The notes under the pieces are model-generated. The model was not told the origin of the DNA, ran no database searches, and saw nothing but the letters and a program-made list of their open reading frames with translations. The position numbers were made by a program, and so were the translations under genes. A stretch of 8,042 nt of DNA from an uncultured Lachnospiraceae bacterium (GTDB lineage Bacteria; Bacillota_A; Clostridia; Lachnospirales; Lachnospiraceae): the NCBI GenBank assembly GCA_902787595.1, contig CADAHD010000094.1, positions 1 to 8,042 on the forward strand, given 5' to 3'. Positions 1 through 8,042 of this stretch are shown here, one piece after another; positions within the stretch are counted from its first letter, which is position 1; each line of letters opens with the position of its first letter.

Positions 1-1
1 G

Positions 2-625
2 GAACTGGTGCGCGGCGAACTTACAATAGGCGCCAGCAATACCCTGACAGAATGCTATCTGCTCAAATATCTGAAACAGTATCACCGCATCTATCCCGGA
101 GTTAAGGTACGTATATTAAACGGCACTTCAAAGCGCGTTATGAGTTTTCTTAACAACGGTACGGTAGATATAGCTTTTGCAACCACGAACGAAAGAGATA
201 AACGCTTCGAATCCTATATGTGCTTTAAAACGCATACAGCATTCGTAGCCGCTGCGGATTATCCCATCGATTTCTCAAAGACCTACAGCTTAAAGGAGAT
301 ATCCTCCCTGCCCCTCATTCTCCTCGAAAAAGAAGCCGGATCGCGCCGCTTCCTTGAGGATTGTTTCCTGAAAAAAGGACTGCGGCTGGAGCCGGAAATA
401 GAGCTGGCAAGCTACGAACTGCTGATATCGCTGGCCGGGATAGGTCTGGGAATAGCCGGCATAACCGAAGAATTCTCCGGAGATGCACTGAATAAAGGTA
501 TAGTAAAACGTCTTAACTTAAGCACCTCCCTTCCCGAACGCGCCGTGAGCATGCTGTCCCCCAAAAACGGCGAAGTCAGCATGGCTGCCCGTAAATTTAT
601 GGAGTTGATACGCAGCGCAGATTAA
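2..625 (+). CDS. LysR-type transcriptional regulator, C-terminal part (5' end outside window)
   Basis: This is the effector-binding (periplasmic-binding-protein-like) domain of a LysR-family transcription factor. The reading frame is open to the left edge, and the first residues, GELTIGASNT, match the usual start of the domain (G-x-L-x-I-G-A-S). They are followed by YPGVKVRILNGTSKRVMSFLNNGTVDIAF, split here as YPGVKVRILNG and then NNGTVDIAF, the classic first half of the fold. A second-half signature is SLAGIGLGIAGI (about residues 142-153 counted from the GTG at 8). Full LysR proteins are about 290-300 residues; about 205 are visible, so the winged helix-turn-helix and linker helix (about 90 residues) lie upstream. 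The GTG at 8 is therefore an internal codon, not a start. The effector and the regulated genes cannot be told. The next operon lies in the same direction with its own promoter, so the usual divergent-target arrangement is not visible here. No clear terminator follows the stop at 623-625. Confidence 0.9.
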   Translation, partial: ELVRGELTIGASNTLTECYLLKYLKQYHRIYPGVKVRILNGTSKRVMSFLNNGTVDIAFATTNERDKRFESYMCFKTHTAFVAAADYPIDFSKTYSLKEISSLPLILLEKEAGSRRFLEDCFLKKGLRLEPEIELASYELLISLAGIGLGIAGITEEFSGDALNKGIVKRLNLSTSLPERAVSMLSPKNGEVSMAARKFMELIRSAD

Positions 626-659
626 ATAATATTCTGATCGTGCAATACCGTTCTGCCGA

Positions 660-689
660 TTTACTATCCCCTGCCTGTTATGATATAAT
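660..689 (+). promoter_or_regulatory. Promoter of the HAD/ParB-like operon (extended -10)
   Basis: A perfect TATAAT at 684-689 is preceded by TG at 681-682, giving an extended -10 (TGATATAAT). A weak -35, TTTACT at 660-665 (4 of 6 to TTGACA), sits 18 bases upstream. This is typical of a sigma-A promoter where the extended -10 compensates for a poor -35. Transcription would start near 696, leaving an untranslated leader of about 75 bases before the ATG at 773. It is the only good promoter-like sequence in the 147-base gap after the LysR gene. Confidence 0.65.
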
Positions 690-719
690 CCCGTAATGTA
701 AGGATCTGTCTGTTTACAG

Positions 720-753
720 CCGTTACAGCAACACTAAGTTACAACTTTAACGG
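720..753 (+). promoter_or_regulatory. Inverted repeats in the leader of the HAD/ParB-like operon
   Basis: CCGTTA at 720-725 can pair with TAACGG at 748-753 across a 22-base loop. Inside the loop lies a second small palindrome, AAGTT-AC-AACTT (736-747). GTTACA also occurs twice (722-727 and 738-743). The set sits between the putative transcription start and the ribosome binding site (AGGAG, 761-765). It could be an operator or an mRNA structure, but the stems are short and chance is a fair alternative. Confidence 0.25.
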
Positions 754-772
754 TCGCAATAGGAGTTATTAT

Positions 773-1270
773 ATGAGAATTTCTTTTGATCTGGATGAGG
801 TACTGTTTGTCGATCCCGATACTTTCGATACCGAGCCCCCACTGCGTTTTCCCTTAAACCATGTGTTCAGCGAACGTCTCCGGAAGGGCACGGTGGATCT
901 GATCCACGAGCTCCAGTCCCGTGGATTTGAAGTCTGGATATATACTTCATCTTTCCGCGCTGATGTCTATATCCGCAATCTTTTCAGACATTACGGAGTT
1001 AAATTCAACGGTATCATCAATGGCTACAGACATAACGCCGAGGTACAGCGCGGCCGGAGCGAGATATTGCCCCAGAAGATGCCCGGCCACTACCACATAT
1101 CACTGCATGTGGATGACGAAGAAGCTATCATCGCCAATGCCCGCAGCTTTGGTTTTAAAGTCTTAAGGGTATGCGAACCTGACGAACACTGGGCAGAAAA
1201 AGTCCTGGCAGAAGCAGACCGGATACGTAAGCTTGAAGAAGCGGCTGAAAGGCAAAGGAGGGGCAGATGA
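773..1270 (+). CDS. HAD-superfamily phosphatase-like protein
   Basis: This 165-residue protein has the four HAD hydrolase motifs. Motif I is FDLDEVLF, with the nucleophile D6 and the acid/base D8. Motif II is WIYTSS (T58 or S59). A lysine for motif III is plausible at K102. Motif IV is HVDDEE (D114-D115, Mg2+ ligands). Only a very short cap region is possible, so the substrate may be large or may be a small phosphate ester. HAD enzymes of this size usually hydrolyse phosphate from proteins, nucleic-acid ends, sugars or nucleotides; nothing here chooses between them. The C-terminus (about 142-165) is a charged helix ending in RQRRGR. The ATG at 773 has an AGGAG 7 bases upstream (761-765). The gene is first in its operon, and its stop overlaps the next start as ATGA (1267-1270), suggesting translational coupling and joint function with the ParB-like protein. 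Confidence 0.85.
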   Translation: MRISFDLDEVLFVDPDTFDTEPPLRFPLNHVFSERLRKGTVDLIHELQSRGFEVWIYTSSFRADVYIRNLFRHYGVKFNGIINGYRHNAEVQRGRSEILPQKMPGHYHISLHVDDEEAIIANARSFGFKVLRVCEPDEHWAEKVLAEADRIRKLEEAAERQRRGR

Positions 1271-1653
1271 GCTGGAGCAGTGATTTTCTTGAACGTGTTC
1301 GCAATGACATAAAAACATATAAAGACCGACGGGAAATGGTCAGAGTTAACATTCTTGTGCGGCTGATGGTGCATAAGCTTCCGCCTGAAATGCTAAAGCC
1401 CAACCCGGACGATGAATTTACTTTTGACAATATCGGACCTAACGAACATATTATACAGGGTTATTGTGAAGTAATACGCAGAAACCAGCGATATGATGAG
1501 GATATATTTCCCGAGCCTATCATAATACAGAGGATGCAGATCGGAGGATATATGATACTTAACGGCCATCACCGCTGGGCAGCCGCCCTGCACGAAAAGA
1601 TCCCTCTGGTACGTGTAGCTGTAGTAAATCCCCGCAAAAAAGGAGATAAATAA
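1267..1653 (+). CDS. ParB/sulfiredoxin-fold protein (single domain)
   Basis: This 128-residue protein has a recognisable ParB/Srx core near the C-terminus: PEPIIIQRMQIGGYMILNGH, followed by HRWAAAL and the closing strand PLVRVAVVN. NGHHR (99-103) occupies the place of the family's nucleotide-binding G-x-x-R motif. Members of this fold include chromosome-segregation ParB (CTPase), sulfiredoxin (ATP-dependent) and the free-serine kinase SerK, so nucleotide binding is a reasonable guess. There is no helix-turn-helix or dimerisation domain after the core, so this is not a canonical ParB or Noc. The N-terminal half (1-80) is charged and helical, with the acidic segment NPDDEFTFDNIGPNEHIIQG. The start overlaps the HAD gene stop by four bases and has a very strong ribosome binding site (AAAGGAGG, 1254-1261). 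Pairing with a phosphatase suggests a kinase/phosphatase or nucleic-acid-processing pair, but that is inference. Confidence 0.75.
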   Translation: MSWSSDFLERVRNDIKTYKDRREMVRVNILVRLMVHKLPPEMLKPNPDDEFTFDNIGPNEHIIQGYCEVIRRNQRYDEDIFPEPIIIQRMQIGGYMILNGHHRWAAALHEKIPLVRVAVVNPRKKGDK

Positions 1654-2142
1654 ATGAAGAATAACAGCTTTAAAAGATTCATCAAAGTCATTCTCCTGAT
1701 CGGAGCCGGCTTTCTGATAAACGATGTAATAGAGCTCGCCATACGTTACTTTAAAGAGCGAATAGCCCTGCGTGACTATATCGAAAAAGAATTAGATAAA
1801 CGCTCTAAAACAGATCCTTCCAAAAGCAGCCTGCGGGACGTTGAACGCATGGCTGAATATGTCGAAGCGATGCTGTTAAAAAACGGTGCCGAACAGGTAT
1901 TTACCTCCGGCGAAGAAAAATACAAACTAAGACGAACATATAAATTTAACGGCGCATACTATCGCATGAGCATCTCTGAGATCGATGGTGAACCCTTCCT
2001 TATCGCCAATGCCACAGATGATTCCGAATACGCCGATATCGGCATCATGGAGGAGATAGGCGCCTTCTCCCCTTCCCTGTCCGAAAGCGAGCTGGAACAC
2101 GAGGTCCGCTGCCTTCTGGAACTTGAAGACTATGAAGTGTGA
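1654..2142 (+). CDS. Small single-pass membrane protein of unknown function
   Basis: This 162-residue protein has a basic N-terminus (KNNSFKRFIK) followed by one hydrophobic helix at about 11-29 (VILLIGAGFLINDVIELAI). That is a membrane anchor or uncleaved signal rather than a cleavable signal peptide. A charged helical stretch (33-80) follows. Then comes a compact domain with two or three predicted beta strands (about 90-122, including TYKFNGAYYRMSI and EPFLIANA) and an acidic C-terminal helix (143-162). I do not recognise a characterised family and see no catalytic motif. The ATG follows the ParB-like gene's stop codon with no gap, and its AGGAG (1641-1645) lies inside that gene, so the three genes are almost certainly co-transcribed. 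The TGA stop overlaps a palindrome (2141-2169). Whether the soluble part faces the cytoplasm or the outside cannot be settled, since positive charges flank both sides of the helix. Confidence 0.75.
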   Translation: MKNNSFKRFIKVILLIGAGFLINDVIELAIRYFKERIALRDYIEKELDKRSKTDPSKSSLRDVERMAEYVEAMLLKNGAEQVFTSGEEKYKLRRTYKFNGAYYRMSISEIDGEPFLIANATDDSEYADIGIMEEIGAFSPSLSESELEHEVRCLLELEDYEV

Positions 2143-2169
2143 GGACAGAAGGACCGTCCCCCTGTCCTC
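2141..2169. repeat. Compact imperfect palindrome, REP-like
   Basis: GAGGACAG (2141-2148) pairs perfectly with CTGTCCTC (2162-2169). A GGA/TCC mini-stem (2151-2153 with 2157-2159) sits inside, separated from the outer stem by AA on one side and CC on the other. The form, two nested GGAC/GTCC arms with offset bulges, matches a short palindrome I recall as dispersed and multi-copy in many bacterial genomes, in some cases beside Y1 (IS200-like/RAYT) transposases. No T run follows, so it is not a standard intrinsic terminator, though the hairpin could protect the 3' end of the upstream mRNA. It overlaps the final bases of the upstream stop codon. Confidence 0.6.
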
Positions 2170-2192
2170 TACCTAAGCCATCATTTTTACAT

Positions 2193-2245
2193 TTGAATAT
2201 ACAGCGGTCTTATATTATAATGTGCTCGTTGTTTTTTAGTATAAT
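2193..2245 (+). promoter_or_regulatory. purB promoter region, two candidate -10 boxes
   Basis: The better candidate is TTGAAT (2193-2198), a 17-base spacer, then TATAAT (2216-2221), placing the start near 2228. A second perfect TATAAT lies at 2240-2245, but no convincing -35 precedes it. The resulting leader would be only about 15-40 bases, too short for a purine riboswitch. I see no clear PurR-type box. Confidence 0.6.
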
Positions 2246-2266
2246 GATCCTAAGGAGGAGAGATAA

Positions 2267-3703
2267 ATGCCTACAGACATCTACACAAGTCCCTTATCCG
2301 AGCGCTATGCAGGAAAGGACATGCAGTACATTTTTTCACAGGATATGAAATTCAGGACCTGGCGCCGCTTATGGATAGCCCTGGCGGAGACAGAGATGGA
2401 GCTGGGCCTTGATCAGATCACGCCCGATATGATCGAAGAACTCAAGGCTAATAAAGACAATATAAACTATGATGATGCGCGCGCGCGTGAAAAGGAAGTA
2501 CGCCACGATGTTATGAGCCACGTATACGCATACGGCCTTCAGTGCCCCAAAGCAAAGGGCATAATACATCTGGGCGCAACCTCCTGCTACGTAGGCGATA
2601 ACACAGACATCATCGTGATGAAGGAAGCGCTTAAGCTGATAAAGAAAAAGCTTGTGTGCGTTATCGATGAGCTTGCTAAATTTGCTAAGGAATACAAGGA
2701 TCTGCCCACTCTGGCGTTTACCCACTTCCAGCCCGCGCAGCCCACTACGGTCGGCAAGCGAGCTGCCCTCTGGATCAATGAATTCATGATAGATCTGGAA
2801 GATCTGGATTATGTATCAGGCAGCCTGAAACTCTTAGGCTCAAAGGGCACAACCGGCACACAGGCCAGCTTCCGTGAGCTGTTTAACGACGACGACGAAA
2901 CCATCGATAAGATCGATCCGATGATCGCTGAAAAGATGGGCTTTGAGTCCTGCTATCCGGTTTCCGGACAGACCTATTCACGCAAGGTCGACACCCGTGT
3001 GCTCAATATACTGGCAGGCATCGCTGCTTCTGCCCACAAGATGAGCAACGACATCCGCCTGCTCCAGCATTTAAAGGAAGTTGAGGAACCCTTCGAAAAG
3101 TCACAGATTGGTTCTTCTGCTATGGCTTACAAACGCAATCCCATGAGAAGCGAGCGCATCGCTTCCCTTTCAAGATATGTGATAATCGACGCATTGAACC
3201 CTGCGATCACTTCCGCTACTCAGTGGTTTGAACGCACACTGGATGATTCCGCAAACAAGCGTATCTCCATCGCTGAAGCTTTCCTGGCAACAGACGGTAT
3301 ACTTGAGCTGTGCCTTAATGTAGTAGACGGACTGGTCGTTAATGATAAGGTGGTCAACAAGCATCTGATGGCTGAACTGCCCTTCATGGCTACGGAGAAT
3401 CTGATGATGGACGCCGTAAAAGCCGGCGGCGACAGGCAGGAAATGCACGAAGAAGTGCGCAAGCTCTCCATGGAAGCAGGAAAGCATATCAAGCAGGAAG
3501 GCAAAGACAACGATCTGCTGGATCTGATCGCAGCCGATCCCAAGTTCAATACCACAAAGGAAGCCCTGGAAGCAAAGATGAATCCCGCCGATTATGTGGG
3601 CCGCTCTCCCAGACAGGTTGAGGTATACCTGCGCGACTTCGTGCAGCCGGTACTCGACGCCAACAAAGAACTGCTGGGCGCCAAAGGCGTGGTAAGCGTA
3701 TAA
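2267..3703 (+). CDS. purB: Adenylosuccinate lyase (long, eukaryote-like form)
   Basis: PurB acts twice in purine synthesis: it splits SAICAR to AICAR plus fumarate, and adenylosuccinate to AMP plus fumarate. It is a cytosolic homotetramer of the fumarase/aspartase superfamily. Visible landmarks are HDVMSHV (80-86), HLGATSCYVGDNTD (101-114), THFQPAQ (152-158, with the probable general acid H153) and the superfamily signature GSSAMAYKRNP (282-292), whose flexible loop carries the catalytic serine (S283/S284). QWFERTLDDSANKR and ELPFMATEN follow. At 478 residues it is clearly longer than the roughly 430-residue Bacillus type, and from memory it matches human ADSL closely along its whole length. 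The signature loop has Ala287 where many homologues have Pro. The ATG at 2267 has an excellent ribosome binding site (AAGGAGGAG, 2252-2260) and fits the expected N-terminus SPLSERYAGKDM. The gene appears monocistronic, ending in a shared terminator with purC. Confidence 0.97.
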   Translation: MPTDIYTSPLSERYAGKDMQYIFSQDMKFRTWRRLWIALAETEMELGLDQITPDMIEELKANKDNINYDDARAREKEVRHDVMSHVYAYGLQCPKAKGIIHLGATSCYVGDNTDIIVMKEALKLIKKKLVCVIDELAKFAKEYKDLPTLAFTHFQPAQPTTVGKRAALWINEFMIDLEDLDYVSGSLKLLGSKGTTGTQASFRELFNDDDETIDKIDPMIAEKMGFESCYPVSGQTYSRKVDTRVLNILAGIAASAHKMSNDIRLLQHLKEVEEPFEKSQIGSSAMAYKRNPMRSERIASLSRYVIIDALNPAITSATQWFERTLDDSANKRISIAEAFLATDGILELCLNVVDGLVVNDKVVNKHLMAELPFMATENLMMDAVKAGGDRQEMHEEVRKLSMEAGKHIKQEGKDNDLLDLIAADPKFNTTKEALEAKMNPADYVGRSPRQVEVYLRDFVQPVLDANKELLGAKGVVSV

Positions 3704-3724
3704 ACAAAGGCTCATTACTAAATT

Positions 3725-3795
3725 AAAAATGTCATCCTGAACGGTTTTAAAGGATCGGGGAAGATCCTTCGCTTCGCTCAGGATGACATTTTTTT
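3725..3795. terminator. Bidirectional terminator made from a nested inverted repeat
   Basis: AAAAATGTCATCCTGA (3725-3740) pairs perfectly over 16 bases with its complement at 3778-3793. Nested inside, AAGGATC (3750-3756) pairs with GATCCTT (3763-3769) around a GGGGAA loop. The right arm ends in seven T (3789-3795), and the left arm begins with five A, which read as T on the minus strand. This gives intrinsic-terminator geometry for both convergent genes, purB (stop at 3703) and purC (stop at 3862). The arm sequence, GTCATCCTGA plus AGCGAAGCGAAGGATC on the minus strand, matches a palindromic repeat I recall as widespread and multi-copy in bacterial genomes, so a mobile or REP-like element may have been adopted as terminator. 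Confidence 0.8.
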
Positions 3796-3811
3796 ATTAC
3801 TCAGGATGACA
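3777..3811. repeat. Direct duplication of one arm of the terminator repeat
   Basis: CTCAGGATGACA at 3777-3788, the right arm of the terminator palindrome, is repeated exactly at 3800-3811 after a short T-rich spacer. The extra copy can also pair with the left arm at 3731-3740 as an alternative stem. It looks like a half-copy left by slippage or by imperfect insertion of the repeat element. Confidence 0.6.
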
Positions 3812-3816
3812 CCATG

Positions 3817-3849
3817 TTCTCAGAATCTTTTTGTTTTCAGAACCTTTTT
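3817..3849. repeat. Short imperfect tandem repeat, period 17
   Basis: TTCTCAGAATCTTTTT (3817-3832) and TTTTCAGAACCTTTTT (3834-3849) agree at 14 of 16 bases. They lie just beyond the purC stop codon. On the minus strand they are A-rich, so they do not form a terminator for purC. They are probably a simple replication-slippage duplication. Confidence 0.5.
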
Positions 3850-3861
3850 CTCATAAAGTTT

Positions 3862-4725
3862 TTATACCTCAAGTTCTTTTCCGGTTAACAGGCGGTATGC
3901 TTCAAGATATTTCTCGATGGTCTTCTGCTCTACTTCTACAGGCAGCTTCCAGTCGTGCTCATTGCTCTTGAGCCAGTCACGGGCGAACTGCTTGTCAAAG
4001 GAAGGCTGGCTCTTGCCTGCCTCATAGCCTTCTACCGGCCAGAAACGTGAGCTGTCGGGCGTAAGCATCTCATCACCGATGATGATCTCGCCGTTCTCAT
4101 CCAGACCGAATTCAAACTTTGTATCAGCTATGATGATCCCCCTGCTGCGCGCATAGTCTGCGCACTTCACATACAGCGCTATGGTATAGTCACGAAGCTT
4201 CTTTGCATATTCTTCTCCCTTGCCGGGGAATTCTTTTTCAAGAACTTCGATGGATCTCTCATAGGAAATATTCTCATCATGATCGCCTATCTCAGCCTTG
4301 GTACTGGGAGTGTAGATAGGCTCAGGCAGCTTCTCGGATTCCTTAAGTCCTTCAGGCAGTTTAATGCCGCATACAGTGCCGTCCTTCTGATAGCTTGCCC
4401 AGCCGCTGCCGGTGATATATCCGCGGACTATGCACTCGATGGGCAGCATCGTAAGTTTCTTGCACATCATGCTCTTGCCTTTGAATTCCGGCTTTCTGAA
4501 GAATTCGGGCATCTCATTTACATCCGTGCTTATCATGTGATTCTTTACGATATCACCGGTCATATCAAACCAGAACTTTGACATCTGGGTAAGCACAGTA
4601 CCCTTCTTTTCGATGATGTTCTTAAGGATCACGTCAAAGCAGCTGATCCTGTCCGTTGCTACCATGATAAGGCTGTCGCCGTTATCATAGATCTCTCTTA
4701 CCTTGCCTTCTTTGATGGGTTTCAT
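3862..4725 (-). CDS. purC: SAICAR synthase (phosphoribosylaminoimidazole-succinocarboxamide synthase)
   Basis: PurC joins CAIR and aspartate using ATP to give SAICAR, the step just before PurB's first reaction. The 287-residue protein shows the N-terminal GKVREIY ATP-binding loop (7-13), ATDRIS (23-28), family signature 1 [16 protein letters not shown] (94-109), [16 protein letters not shown] (139-154), signature 2 [10 protein letters not shown] (198-207) and [12 protein letters not shown] (218-229). All expected key segments are present. It is longer than the roughly 235-residue form of Bacillus and E. coli and resembles yeast Ade1 as I recall it. The ATG at 4725 has a strong ribosome binding site (AAGGAGG in 4732-4738). 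The gene starts only 17 bases after the coiled-coil membrane gene, leaving no room for a promoter in the gap, so it is probably read from the upstream operon or from a promoter inside the preceding gene. It ends toward the terminator shared with purB. Confidence 0.97.
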
Positions 4726-4742
4726 TTGATTCCTCCTTTTTT

Positions 4743-5945
4743 TCAGCCGCCATCATAGCGTCTTACTATTCCTTCTATCTCATCCGCATATTGCGGATAA
4801 GCCAATACCAGATCTTTTATCTTATCCTGGGCTCGCCCGGTGATCTGCTTATTGTATTCAAGATGCTCGCGCAGTTTGCCGCGTCTGCCTATCAGCGCAT
4901 GCCGCACTTCCACCATTTCCCTGGGATCCACCAGCGCCCTGACCTGCCTGGTCCATATCTCAGGGTCCTGTATGCCGCATTTACGCAGGCTTTCGGTCAG
5001 TTTCTGATAATAATACTCCAGATCCTGACGAAGCCTTTCATCCTTAACACGGGCATTCATGACATCTATGTAATCTGCCCAGTCTGCCTCCAGATCCTTT
5101 GATGAATTTACATCATACTTTGTATACATATATGAGAGCAGATTGGTGTTATTCACATAACGTATCTTTACGGTATTATGAAGGACTATGATCTTATCAC
5201 GCGCTTTGGTGAGCTGTCTTATCTCTTTAGCCGCATCCTGATATTTTACGAACATCACAGTCAGCGCAATAGCTCCTGCGCCTCCTGTCAGTATATAGCC
5301 CCAGCTCACATCCATTTTCATGACATATTGCAGCACCGCCAGGATCAGGATGGCAAATATCACAGCCACAGCAACTATGACTGCCACGCCCCTGCAATTG
5401 GAAAGCGTGACCACTGCTTCCTTCATCTGATAACGGTTAGAAGCTTTCTCAGCTTCCATCTTGCGAAGATCCATCTTTACCAGACGACGGTATTTCTCCG
5501 CTTCCTTCATCTTTTCTATAGCCGCGGGAATGACATCCTCATAGCGTTTTAACAGATCCAGCCTGTAATCATCCAGAATGCCGGCATCCTCATAAGCCAG
5601 TCTGCGCTCTTTTTCCAGCTTCTCTATCCTTTCAGCCTGAGCGCTTATGCTGTCACGCATATCACCGACCAGCGCCTCTATCTCTTCCGTATCTTTGAGC
5701 AGCGCCGTAACGGCATCATATTCACTCTTATACTGCTCCGCCTTCCCGGCGGCCTCGCTCATCTGCTGAAGAGTCTCAAGCACATATACCGTACGGGTAT
5801 CGGCATCATTAAAATATCCTGCTCCCCTTTCGGCTGCCGGTTTATCATCTTCCAGCGACTTTTCATCCCATTCTTCCTCAGTATCGTCATAATCGCCGGA
5901 AAACCATTTATTCCATTTTTCTTTCAGCTTTTGAAAGAAACCCAT
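4743..5945 (-). CDS. Coiled-coil protein with a two-helix membrane hairpin, unknown function
   Basis: This 400-residue protein has a short basic amphipathic start ([15 protein letters not shown]), a strongly acidic linker (18-35), then long heptad-like charged helices (about 55-175). Two hydrophobic helices follow (about 186-209 and 215-233), with a short connecting turn containing MDVSW. A second helical region (235-330) and a basic, charged C-terminal helical domain (335-400) complete it. There is no signal peptide. The hairpin would put both large helical parts on the same side, most likely the cytoplasm. I recognise no enzyme motif or named family. The ATG lies 3 bases after the TPR gene's stop, with GGAG (5952-5955) inside that gene, so translation is probably coupled. 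As third gene of the Hsp70-like/TPR set, it may be the membrane anchor or scaffold of a complex; this is inference from gene order and topology. Confidence 0.75.
4782..4798 (-). other. Small perfect hairpin sequence in the end of the coiled-coil gene
   Basis: ATCCGCA and TGCGGAT form a 7-base perfect inverted repeat with a 3-base loop, about 40 bases before the stop codon and 57 bases upstream of the purC start. No T run follows on the minus strand, so it is not a normal terminator. It encodes part of AYPQYADE and may be chance, or a minor mRNA-processing or attenuation structure ahead of purC. Confidence 0.25.
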
Positions 5946-5948
5946 ATG

Positions 5949-6785
5949 CTACTCCGCCATGAACTTTCTGTATCTGTCCTTTTCGTCCTGAAGGAATGCA
6001 TAAGCTTCTGCCGCATATTCGTTCCGGTCGCTTCCCATACGAAGCTTCCTCAGTTCATCCGTCATTCTGCCTGTCGGTGAATCTTTATAATCCCTGCGCG
6101 CCTGCGCCATCACTTCTTCGACCTGCGCAGATACCGTGGTATCCATATCCAGCGTAGAAATAAAATCCAGGTATTCCATATCCCCCAGCTGCATGCGTTT
6201 GGCTGCCAGGTAAGCAAACATTATATCATCCGAAGGTTCCAGTTCATAAGCCTTCATATAATAATCCGCCGCCTCCGCAAAACAGAAAAGCCTTGCATAA
6301 ATAACTCCCAGATTAATATATATGCCGGAAAGCCGGCGTTCATCAGGCCCGTCCTGTTTCATTCCCAGCAGACGCTCATAGGTCTTGAGCGCCGACATAA
6401 AGTTGCCTCCGCGCAGGAAATAATCCGCCAACACCATCAGCCTGCCTGTCTCCGGCATGCTCCTGTTAGCCCTTATCACCTTGCCTATGCGCTTAAGCTC
6501 GTCCTCATCCACATAGTTGGCAGCATTCAGTATCTCTCCGACAAAGCTCTCTAGCTTGACACTCTGGCGGCGGACCACCTTCAGTTTGGCCGCAAGCTCT
6601 TTAAGACCGCATTCATCCGCAACCCAGTCTATCAGTTCGTTTGAAGCAAAGCTGTCATCCAGAAGATCCGCATTTTCACAGATATAATAGCAGAGTTCTT
6701 CCAGGCACCATACCCTTATATATGTATTTTTGATCACCAGCGGGGTATTCGCATAACGCCCCACGCATTGATGGATAGTAGTCAA
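5949..6785 (-). CDS. TPR-repeat protein, second gene of the Hsp70-like operon
   Basis: This 278-residue cytoplasmic protein has no signal or membrane helix. The N-terminal region (1-110) is helical, with a conserved-looking GRYANTP...EELCYYICENADLL segment (9-42) that I do not recognise as a named domain. Two tetratricopeptide repeats follow. The first is about 112-145 (LADYFLRGGNFMSALKTYER). The second is about 153-186 (YINLGVIYARLFCFAEAADY, then YMKAYELEP) and fits the TPR consensus very well. The C-terminus (220-278) is charged and helical. TPRs are protein-binding modules and commonly partner Hsp70 or Hsp90 proteins, which fits the upstream gene. The best start is a TTG at 6785: GAGG (6794-6797) lies 8 bases upstream, overlapping the preceding stop codon, and an in-frame stop lies just before it (6801-6803). 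The later in-frame GTG (residue 8) has no ribosome binding site. The gap to the upstream gene is 10 bases. Confidence 0.8.
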   Translation of the reverse strand: MTTIHQCVGRYANTPLVIKNTYIRVWCLEELCYYICENADLLDDSFASNELIDWVADECGLKELAAKLKVVRRQSVKLESFVGEILNAANYVDEDELKRIGKVIRANRSMPETGRLMVLADYFLRGGNFMSALKTYERLLGMKQDGPDERRLSGIYINLGVIYARLFCFAEAADYYMKAYELEPSDDIMFAYLAAKRMQLGDMEYLDFISTLDMDTTVSAQVEEVMAQARRDYKDSPTGRMTDELRKLRMGSDRNEYAAEAYAFLQDEKDRYRKFMAE

Positions 6786-6795
6786 TATCCCGACC

Positions 6796-8042
6796 TCACA
6801 TTATTGAAAAACTGCTCTCCCATTCAAGACCCGAAGGAGCAAATATTTCTCCAAAACCCATATCCGTAATGATCACATTCACTCTGGTCTCCGAAAGCAT
6901 AGTAAGCTTTAAATGTATCCTGGTTGCCCTTCTCTGTCTCCTGGGAAGTCCCTGCAGATATACCGGCACGGTTTTGGGATTCTTTCCGTTAAGCGGAGTC
7001 ACGATAAAATCCAGTCGTTCCCCCGGCTCCATCATCAGCTCACATTCCTTATAGCTGTCGTACCAGTTTCTGCCGCCGTCCAGAAGCGCCATATAAGCCT
7101 CAACGCCCTCGCGCATAACCATCATACCGATATTTGCCTTAACCTTATCCTGTCCAAGGAATACGCAGAGCTTCTCTTCCTCCGAAGGCTCCAGCTTTTC
7201 CCTGGCGCCATAGCAGGCTCCCTTGCTGAAGAGGTTATTTCCCTTAAAAGCCCTGCGGCCTTTGCATATATATTTCAGGCTTTCGGAAAGCCAGTCTCCC
7301 TCAAAGCCTTCACCCAGCAGATATACCGCAGATACCCTTTTGTCTTCGATCACGCCGTACAGTATGCTGTTAAACTTTTCATCCTTTTTGCTCTTTTTGA
7401 CATCGGCATTCTTTACCCCGTCAAACTGTTCCGGGACAAAATCCTCATATATGCTTTCCTGCATGATAACAACATGCGGTCTGGTCTGCCTGTTCTCCGT
7501 AAAGAGCATCGCATGAAGTCCGTTGCCGCGAAGATCGCATATACATACATCGGCTACCCTCACGTCCTTGGGCTGGTGCATGATATAATGATAAGCGCTC
7601 TCCGCATGACTCTGAAAGAAAACTCTCTCAGGCTTAAGCCTCAGCGTCTTTACTACCTGCCCCAGAATAGCTATCATCTGCTCATCAGGTTCTTCCACGG
7701 TGATAACTATCGCCGCCACCTTCTCCAAAGGCGCCTGAGCATATAAGCGCGATAAACACTTACGTATAAATAGCGCCAGCAGATCCACGGGATTATAATC
7801 CACAGCTTCCACTTCAACCGCTCTTCCTTCACGCGCGCGCTCTATCAGCCTGTCCACAGGGAAAGCCTCGTCGGCAGTGCTCATTTCAAGAGCTTCTTCC
7901 CCATATGTCCAGGAACTCTCACCGTATTTTTTAGCCAGCATCGTGGGTATGCAGAGTCTGTCGGTTCCTGCTATAAGACTGGGCGTAATTGGTTCTTCAC
8001 TGCCGCTGGCATAACTCACCTGCGAAAACTCGTCACTCAGAT
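6796..8042 (-). CDS. Hsp70/actin-like ATPase-fold protein (extreme N-terminus outside window)
   Basis: The frame stays open to the right edge. Reading in from it gives LSDEFSQVSYASG, which looks like the end of an actin-fold phosphate-1 motif (GxDLxD...Q), so probably only about ten residues are missing and the GTG at 8019 is not the true start. Counting from that GTG: AAIVITVEEP (102-111) and FFQSHAESAYHYIM (134-147) match the Hsp70 core. CDLRGNGLHAML (161-172) matches phosphate-2, but with R where Hsp70 has G. VYLLGEGFEGDWLSESL through GACYGA (232-272) matches the adenosine motif. The stretch between the last two is much shorter than in DnaK, so subdomain IIB appears reduced. Residues about 290-407 are strand-rich and resemble an Hsp70 substrate-binding beta sandwich, with a conserved-looking TDMGFGEIFAPSGLEW (385-400). 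There is no helical lid and no C-terminal EEVD tail. It resembles an unnamed Clostridia family (possibly DUF5716, from memory). It leads an operon with the TPR and coiled-coil genes. Confidence 0.75.
   Translation of the reverse strand, partial: LSDEFSQVSYASGSEEPITPSLIAGTDRLCIPTMLAKKYGESSWTYGEEALEMSTADEAFPVDRLIERAREGRAVEVEAVDYNPVDLLALFIRKCLSRLYAQAPLEKVAAIVITVEEPDEQMIAILGQVVKTLRLKPERVFFQSHAESAYHYIMHQPKDVRVADVCICDLRGNGLHAMLFTENRQTRPHVVIMQESIYEDFVPEQFDGVKNADVKKSKKDEKFNSILYGVIEDKRVSAVYLLGEGFEGDWLSESLKYICKGRRAFKGNNLFSKGACYGAREKLEPSEEEKLCVFLGQDKVKANIGMMVMREGVEAYMALLDGGRNWYDSYKECELMMEPGERLDFIVTPLNGKNPKTVPVYLQGLPRRQRRATRIHLKLTMLSETRVNVIITDMGFGEIFAPSGLEWESSFSIM

Follow-up and report, generated by a model that had tools for sequence, protein, structure and literature searches.

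We have analysed an 8,042-nucleotide stretch of DNA from an uncultured Lachnospiraceae bacterium (contig CADAHD010000094.1, positions 1 to 8,042; hereafter the window), the right-hand part of which carries three adjacent genes encoding a DUF5716 protein, a TPR protein and a coiled-coil membrane protein (CC). Together with DUF5717, the neighbour expected beyond the right edge, this set looks like the remnant or core of a dedicated Hsp70 machine that has shed its motor, because Hsp70s and GrpE are absent from the operon, the DUF5716 protein has lost catalytic residues of Hsp70 and its lobe II is about half length. With moderate confidence, we regard the three genes and DUF5717 as the Lachnospiraceae version of such a machine, a scaffold that would carry a non-cycling peptide clamp in the manner of Ssz1. 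The features are listed below; limits of the two domain regions are approximate, and L001 is a related locus whose DUF5716 ortholog is 90% identical to that of the window.

6796..8042, minus strand: DUF5716 pseudo-Hsp70 gene, truncated at its 5' side by the right edge of the window; PF18980 (E 2.1e-99), AlphaFold model of the L001 ortholog; catalytic residues gone.
7153..8040, minus strand: nucleotide-binding domain (NBD) region of DUF5716; lobe II is shortened (placed by means of the L001 model and the alignment).
6805..7140, minus strand: beta substrate-binding domain (beta-SBD) region of DUF5716, with a family-wide motif (DMGFGEIF in the window) near its end and no helical lid afterwards.
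5949..6785, minus strand: TPR protein with a TTG start codon, conserved N-domain plus TPR (PF07719, family alignment, hhalign).
4743..5945, minus strand: CC, with a likely membrane hairpin; no family above cut-off (hhalign, hydropathy).
5331..5387, minus strand: predicted first transmembrane helix of CC, residues 187-205 (hydropathy 3.49).
5238..5303, minus strand: predicted second transmembrane helix of CC, residues ~215-236, under the threshold in the window protein and over it in 29 of 33 relatives.

The coordinates of the open reading frames (ORFs; 4743-5945, 5949-6785 and 6796-8042) confirm the three minus-strand genes of a first-pass annotation of this DNA, with 3 bases between the first two and 10 between the last two. 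The last ORF runs off the right edge and, judged from L001, starts about 24 residues further upstream. The trio is more than a chance arrangement: its DUF5716 is a member of Pfam DUF5716_C (332.6 bits against a cut-off of 34.7, E 2e-99), and the same gene order recurs in related loci. Forty such loci in other genomes were obtained through a search with DUF5716, and selection by similarity to the window protein favours the window's arrangement; beside DUF5716 they hold DUF5717 (40/40), the TPR gene (40/40) and CC (33/40). The first-pass annotation had asked whether the genes travel together and had thought further members possible beyond the right edge, and the tabulated neighbourhoods bear out both: a gene of about 1190 residues stands upstream on the same strand in every one of the 40 loci (partial in L026), and in L001 it is DUF5717 (PF18984 and PF18983), which we infer also for the window's own genome. 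A lidless actin/Hsp70 fold for the first protein and TPR repeats in the second had likewise been proposed; the model described below and a PF07719 match (E 1e-6, 28.8 bits against a cut-off of 27) bear them out. An NCBIfam scan gave nothing above cut-off for any of the three proteins, and a promoter and terminator scan gave nothing usable, promoter-like sites being no more numerous than in shuffles.

The fold of DUF5716 was judged on the AlphaFold model of the L001 ortholog (pLDDT 89.5). It has the Hsp70 fold, an NBD plus a beta-SBD, and finishes at the beta sandwich; the helical lid of canonical Hsp70 is not present. The beta-SBD is complete and carries the longest invariant motif of the protein. 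The structural matches listed are Hsp70-family chains, except two ciliary central-pair chains with the molecule unnamed in their description, and Ssz1 is the tied best match (14% identity). Catalytic residues K70, E171, D194 and T199 were read by aligning to DnaK of the same genomes. K70 is kept in none of the 40 Lachnospiraceae-type DUF5716 sequences, that of the window included, which has I, Q, D and G at the four columns. The glycine of the adenosine-type loop (G267) is invariant across 36 aligned sequences. Among the DUF5716 sequences of operons elsewhere in the order (15, that of L043 assigned only by its position), none keeps K70, E171 or T199 and 13 keep D194; a glutamate stands one position after the E171 column in 12 of the 15, and a lysine one or two positions after the K70 column in several, both seen by eye, and the alignment of these sequences may be shifted at those columns. 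In one metagenome-assembled genome DUF5716 is broken into two ORFs (L034:9935-11478), a frameshift or an assembly error.

The second departure from Hsp70 concerns lobe II. The stretch from the phosphate-2 to the adenosine motif, within which GrpE docks on lobe II of Hsp70s, has a median of 74 residues in Lachnospiraceae-type DUF5716 (39 sequences), a shortening that is not universal, as the range (59-145) extends to 145 residues. The same stretch measures 143 residues in DnaK, 140 (125-152) in the DUF5716 of the other order operons and 146-180 (medians) in the Hsp70s of those operons. DUF5716 thus departs from canonical Hsp70 in K70/E171/T199, in the helical lid and in the length of lobe II, and the halving of lobe II is in step with the absence of GrpE and Hsp70s from the operon.

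What a complete form may look like is seen elsewhere in the order. Of the 75 order genomes with a DUF5717 match, 20 supplied a locus for comparison. One locus (L059) is arranged as in Lachnospiraceae, and its genome belongs to the family sample; the remaining 19 genomes all lie outside that sample and are likely, not certainly, outside the family, least certainly G405 (L045). In all 19 loci an Hsp70-type gene comes after DUF5717 (in L058 with two small ORFs between), and the next gene is GrpE-type in all 18 loci that extend so far (in L058 again past small ORFs). The GrpE domain was checked with Pfam in L041, L043, L045 and L058, and the other GrpE-type genes cluster with these. The operon continues with DUF5716, another Hsp70 and then a third (Hsp70c) of about 690 residues with a VWA domain (checked in L061 and L045 only); the DUF5716 profile does not pick up the gene that occupies the DUF5716 position in L043 and L056. 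A TPR gene comes next in 12 of 17 downstream extensions; L063 and L072 have an unrecognised 308-residue gene at its place, in L065 the TPR profile matches just a 123-residue ORF, L075 has the arrangement of Lachnospiraceae, and L077 ends. Seven of the 17 show the membrane coiled-coil gene (L063 and L072 are near-copies, and L076 and L077 end before its place).

The Hsp70s of these operons (Hsp70a, b and c; 16, 14 and 14 sequences) retain K70, E171, D194 and T199 in 44 of 44 cases, and those of L041 and L061 score under the DnaK cut-offs. The Lachnospiraceae-type operon has neither operon Hsp70s nor an operon GrpE. Exactly one GrpE was found in each of nine Lachnospiraceae genomes searched, and a housekeeping DnaK in 6/6 genomes searched; in the four order genomes among these six the extra Hsp70s stand at the operon, and one of the two from Lachnospiraceae has a further Hsp70-like gene at another site. 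The latter, in the L001 genome (G004:C133:196-1881, L084), scores 428 bits, below the DnaK cut-off, has one internal TGA and is distant from the cassette. In G405 (L045, L065), DUF5717 and Hsp70c are split and the TPR gene apparently so, with Hsp70s and GrpE kept; its DUF5716 is the nearest to that of Lachnospiraceae among the other order operons.

A quick tree of 82 sequences, with long branches, a weakly supported root and L043 unplaceable, puts Lachnospiraceae DUF5716 into a single clade nested within the others (support 98-99). That the Lachnospiraceae type lost its motors is the simpler reading, and we prefer it to a gain of motors by the others.

The set is near-universal and single-copy in the family sample and confined to order members in the phylum samples. 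The family sample was drawn, at a completeness of 90% or more, from the family to which the Lachnospiraceae isolate L021 belongs, and DUF5716 was found in 197 of its 200 genomes. Two of the three others also have no DUF5717; in the third, DUF5717 sits at the end of a contig. The TPR gene is present in 97 of 100 family genomes and absent from the same three; it is adjacent to DUF5716 in 78 of 79 genomes with printed coordinates, and in the 79th the two lie on separate contigs. DUF5716 occurs in 2 of 199 phylum-drawn genomes and in none of 14 control genomes; one of the two is the centre genome, the other G148, a member of the family sample as well. DUF5717 occurs in 75 of 146 order genomes, a sample that includes family members, and in 4 of 299 phylum genomes, one being the centre and all four also within the order sample.

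Among the partners, DUF5717 was modelled from the L001 protein with 30 sequences (pLDDT 86.9, pTM 0.55). The model contains Ig-like sandwiches and helical solenoid stretches, the relative placement of which is unsure at this pTM. A fold search gave generic solenoids and Ig/ASH-like domains, with a best E of 6e-7 and no TM-score above 0.38 among the matches listed, and no function can be read from these. Pfam assigns no function to DUF5716_C or DUF5717, and among 5.39 million open-licence PMC papers a single, unrelated one mentions DUF5716 or DUF5717 by name and none by Pfam number. The TPR protein has an N-domain with the consensus VYSxEELCY (VWCLEELCYY in the window), and its profile matches the TPR gene of the other order operons (hhalign E 6e-28, profile positions 1-187); a homologue search returned 122 proteins, and the few names given among the 120 listed are 'hypothetical' or TPR protein. 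CC has no Pfam family above cut-off, and its profile matches the membrane coiled-coil gene of the other order operons (hhalign E 2.7e-43, 325 columns). Its best PDB sequence matches, keratin coiled coils at E 2e-4 with weaker, mixed matches behind, suggest a coiled coil. By hydropathy the window protein has a single clear membrane segment; a hairpin is nevertheless likely, because two hydrophobic stretches are found in 29 of 33 relatives and in 7/7 distant homologues. Away from the locus CC gave no matches in 10 genomes searched, seven of them without CC at the locus; the same query gives matches in the search of 100 family genomes.

Several observations weigh against the view of a machine without motor. 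A PDB sequence search with DUF5716 gave a DnaK match, a weak one (E 0.13). E171 is kept in 6 and T199 in 3 of the 40 Lachnospiraceae-type sequences, D194 in 30, the window among them, and the phosphate-1 aspartate in all 38 that reach that position. Because these two aspartates persist and a few sequences keep the glutamate or threonine, nucleotide binding and a weak ATPase are possible in DUF5716. The direction of change, loss rather than gain, depends on that quick tree, with its long branches and weak root, and there could be a deep Lachnospiraceae member with the full operon. Pfam scans, which covered the operon proteins, showed no J-domain family in these. Finally, CC is the least constant member, found in 44 of 100 family genomes at E 1e-3 (41 strong, 3 marginal) and absent from over half, so that a membrane tether is not essential.

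These results modify the earlier proposal of a membrane-anchored, ATP-dependent machine. For the window's own set, ATP dependence is unlikely, since its DUF5716 has lost catalytic residues of Hsp70. Anchoring survives insofar as the hairpin is likely, and is weakened by the inconstancy of CC; of the coiled coils flanking a two-helix hairpin, the keratin matches suggest the former and the relatives make the latter likely, and the window protein itself shows one clear segment. The argument that a missing GrpE excludes chaperone cycling applies to the window and its close relatives but not to other order genomes, where a GrpE-domain gene and three motif-complete Hsp70 genes share the operon.

From the anatomy of the proteins, DUF5717 would be a cytoplasmic scaffold, the TPR protein an adaptor and the CC hairpin, where present, an optional membrane tether. 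DUF5716 would be a passive, non-cycling peptide clamp that might hold a fixed partner or pass clients to the housekeeping DnaK, much as Ssz1 works with Ssb in eukaryotes. More tentatively, and with some doubt, we suggest a family-wide conversion of a three-Hsp70 machine to an ATP-free one, in which the pseudo-Hsp70 became a permanent peptide clamp on an Ig/TPR-solenoid scaffold, the GrpE-docking lobe was lost along with GrpE, and the whole would serve a core Lachnospiraceae function outside known pathways. Lachnospiraceae rank among the principal gut bacteria of mammals, and a near-universal, single-copy, order-confined set built on an Hsp70 relative implies a shared, unannotated function in them. 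The three-Hsp70 and GrpE operons with the same partners offer a natural comparison with and without motor, which makes it possible to test whether a chaperone complex still functions once its ATPase is lost.

Three other readings were considered. A cytoplasmic scaffold or cytoskeleton-like assembly for envelope proteins, with an actin fold used as in PilM, FtsA or MreB and a DUF5716 no longer binding clients, would fit the actin-type fold, the membrane hairpin protein and the large solenoid DUF5717; it is unlikely in view of the complete beta-SBD with its invariant motif, the motif-complete Hsp70s and GrpE domain of the other order operons, and the almost exclusively Hsp70-family structural matches. 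More unlikely still is a bacterial counterpart of RAC (Ssz1-Zuo1), acting at the ribosome as a targeting or co-translational factor: the resemblance on which it would build is common to all Hsp70s, and no J-domain partner or ribosome-binding domain was seen. A conflict (immunity) system akin to the GAP1-N2 GTPase systems, suggested by the Hsp70, GrpE and FNIII-DnaJ/TPR fusions reported from actinobacteria and firmicutes by Kaur et al. 2020 (PMC7159879) and by the Ig-like domains and solenoid of DUF5717, is very improbable, and membership was rejected, as the cassette proteins scanned have no GAP1 or GTPase domain, GAP1-M (PF20014) is found in 0/13 cassette-carrying genomes with a working positive control in Corynebacterium glutamicum, the cassette is near-universal and single-copy in the family, and PADLOC matches are weak only. 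The PADLOC scan gave one match for the trio (TniQ, E 0.006) and, for eight relatives, partial Hsp70/TPR matches (best E 8.7e-11 to PDC-M61B over an Hsp70 stretch), none of them strong, in line with the first-pass view that no known defence system fits.

The surroundings of the cassette deserve separate mention. Against the closest relatives L003 and L007, DNA identity is 70-82% in the cassette and 93-97% in purC, purB and four further ORFs. Identity jumps at about 4850, the 3' end of the CC gene, and the flank at 2-4725, which makes the locus a mosaic, was probably exchanged recently. Across 83 syntenic genes of the L003 and L007 genomes (the locus and its re-fetched contig L114 left out; 94 genes with L114), median identity is 85.4% and the lower quartile 77.7%; 23 genes lie below the highest cassette value and 5 below the lowest. 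A hypervariable cassette under diversifying exchange was therefore rejected as a special case: its identity, though low, falls within the usual spread, and it is the flank that stands out. Of seven close pairs, four show clearly lower identity in the cassette than in the flank and three a similar identity, and the evolution of the cassette is possibly somewhat faster. purC lies 17 bases downstream of the CC gene on the same strand (window 2267-4725 holds pur genes); purB homologues in 30 of the 40 fetched loci and purC in 7 (E 1e-10) point to a conserved link to purine synthesis genes. A gene cluster of Hsp90 (PF00183) occurs in 14 of the 40, upstream of DUF5717 in the 11 listed; it was Pfam-checked in L001 and L003 (e.g., L001:2519-4588, L003:2407-4563).

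Among known systems, Kaur et al. 2020 (PMC7159879) describe GTPase-centred systems with HSP70 and GrpE in actinobacteria and firmicutes, some of which have an additional Hsp70 gene, and fusions of FNIII repeats to DnaJ or TPR. The likeness of these GAP1-N2 systems to the order operons lies in Hsp70 with GrpE, in an occasional second Hsp70 and in a firmicute protein with beta-repeats and TPR; in that account the second Hsp70 of the GAP1-N2 systems is without the peptide-binding domain, whereas DUF5716 retains its own, and the cassette is a near-universal gene set of one family with neither GTPase nor GAP1. CnuD of CoCoNuT has a degenerate Hsp70-like NBD/SBD, predicted by its authors to hydrolyse ATP poorly (PMC11090510), a description that DUF5716 resembles; CnuD belongs to McrBC-type systems, whereas no McrB or nuclease was seen among the cassette proteins scanned. 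The other order operons share motif-complete Hsp70s (three) and a GrpE-domain protein with the DnaK-GrpE system, and differ in Hsp70s under the DnaK cut-offs, the VWA domain of Hsp70c, further subunits and no J protein seen; the Lachnospiraceae-type operon has no Hsp70 or GrpE at all. Ssz1, which is lidless and binds ATP without hydrolysing it (PMC7083937), shares with DUF5716 an Hsp70 fold with beta-SBD, the absence of a lid and, probably, a lack of canonical cycling. The two have only this fold in common, at 14% identity and with lobe II about half as long in DUF5716; Ssz1 pairs with the J-protein Zuo1 at ribosomes, whereas the neighbours of DUF5716 are DUF5717, TPR and coiled-coil proteins. 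Ssz1 acts, in the same source, as a helper of another Hsp70 (Ssb), and this is the parallel that we propose for DUF5716.

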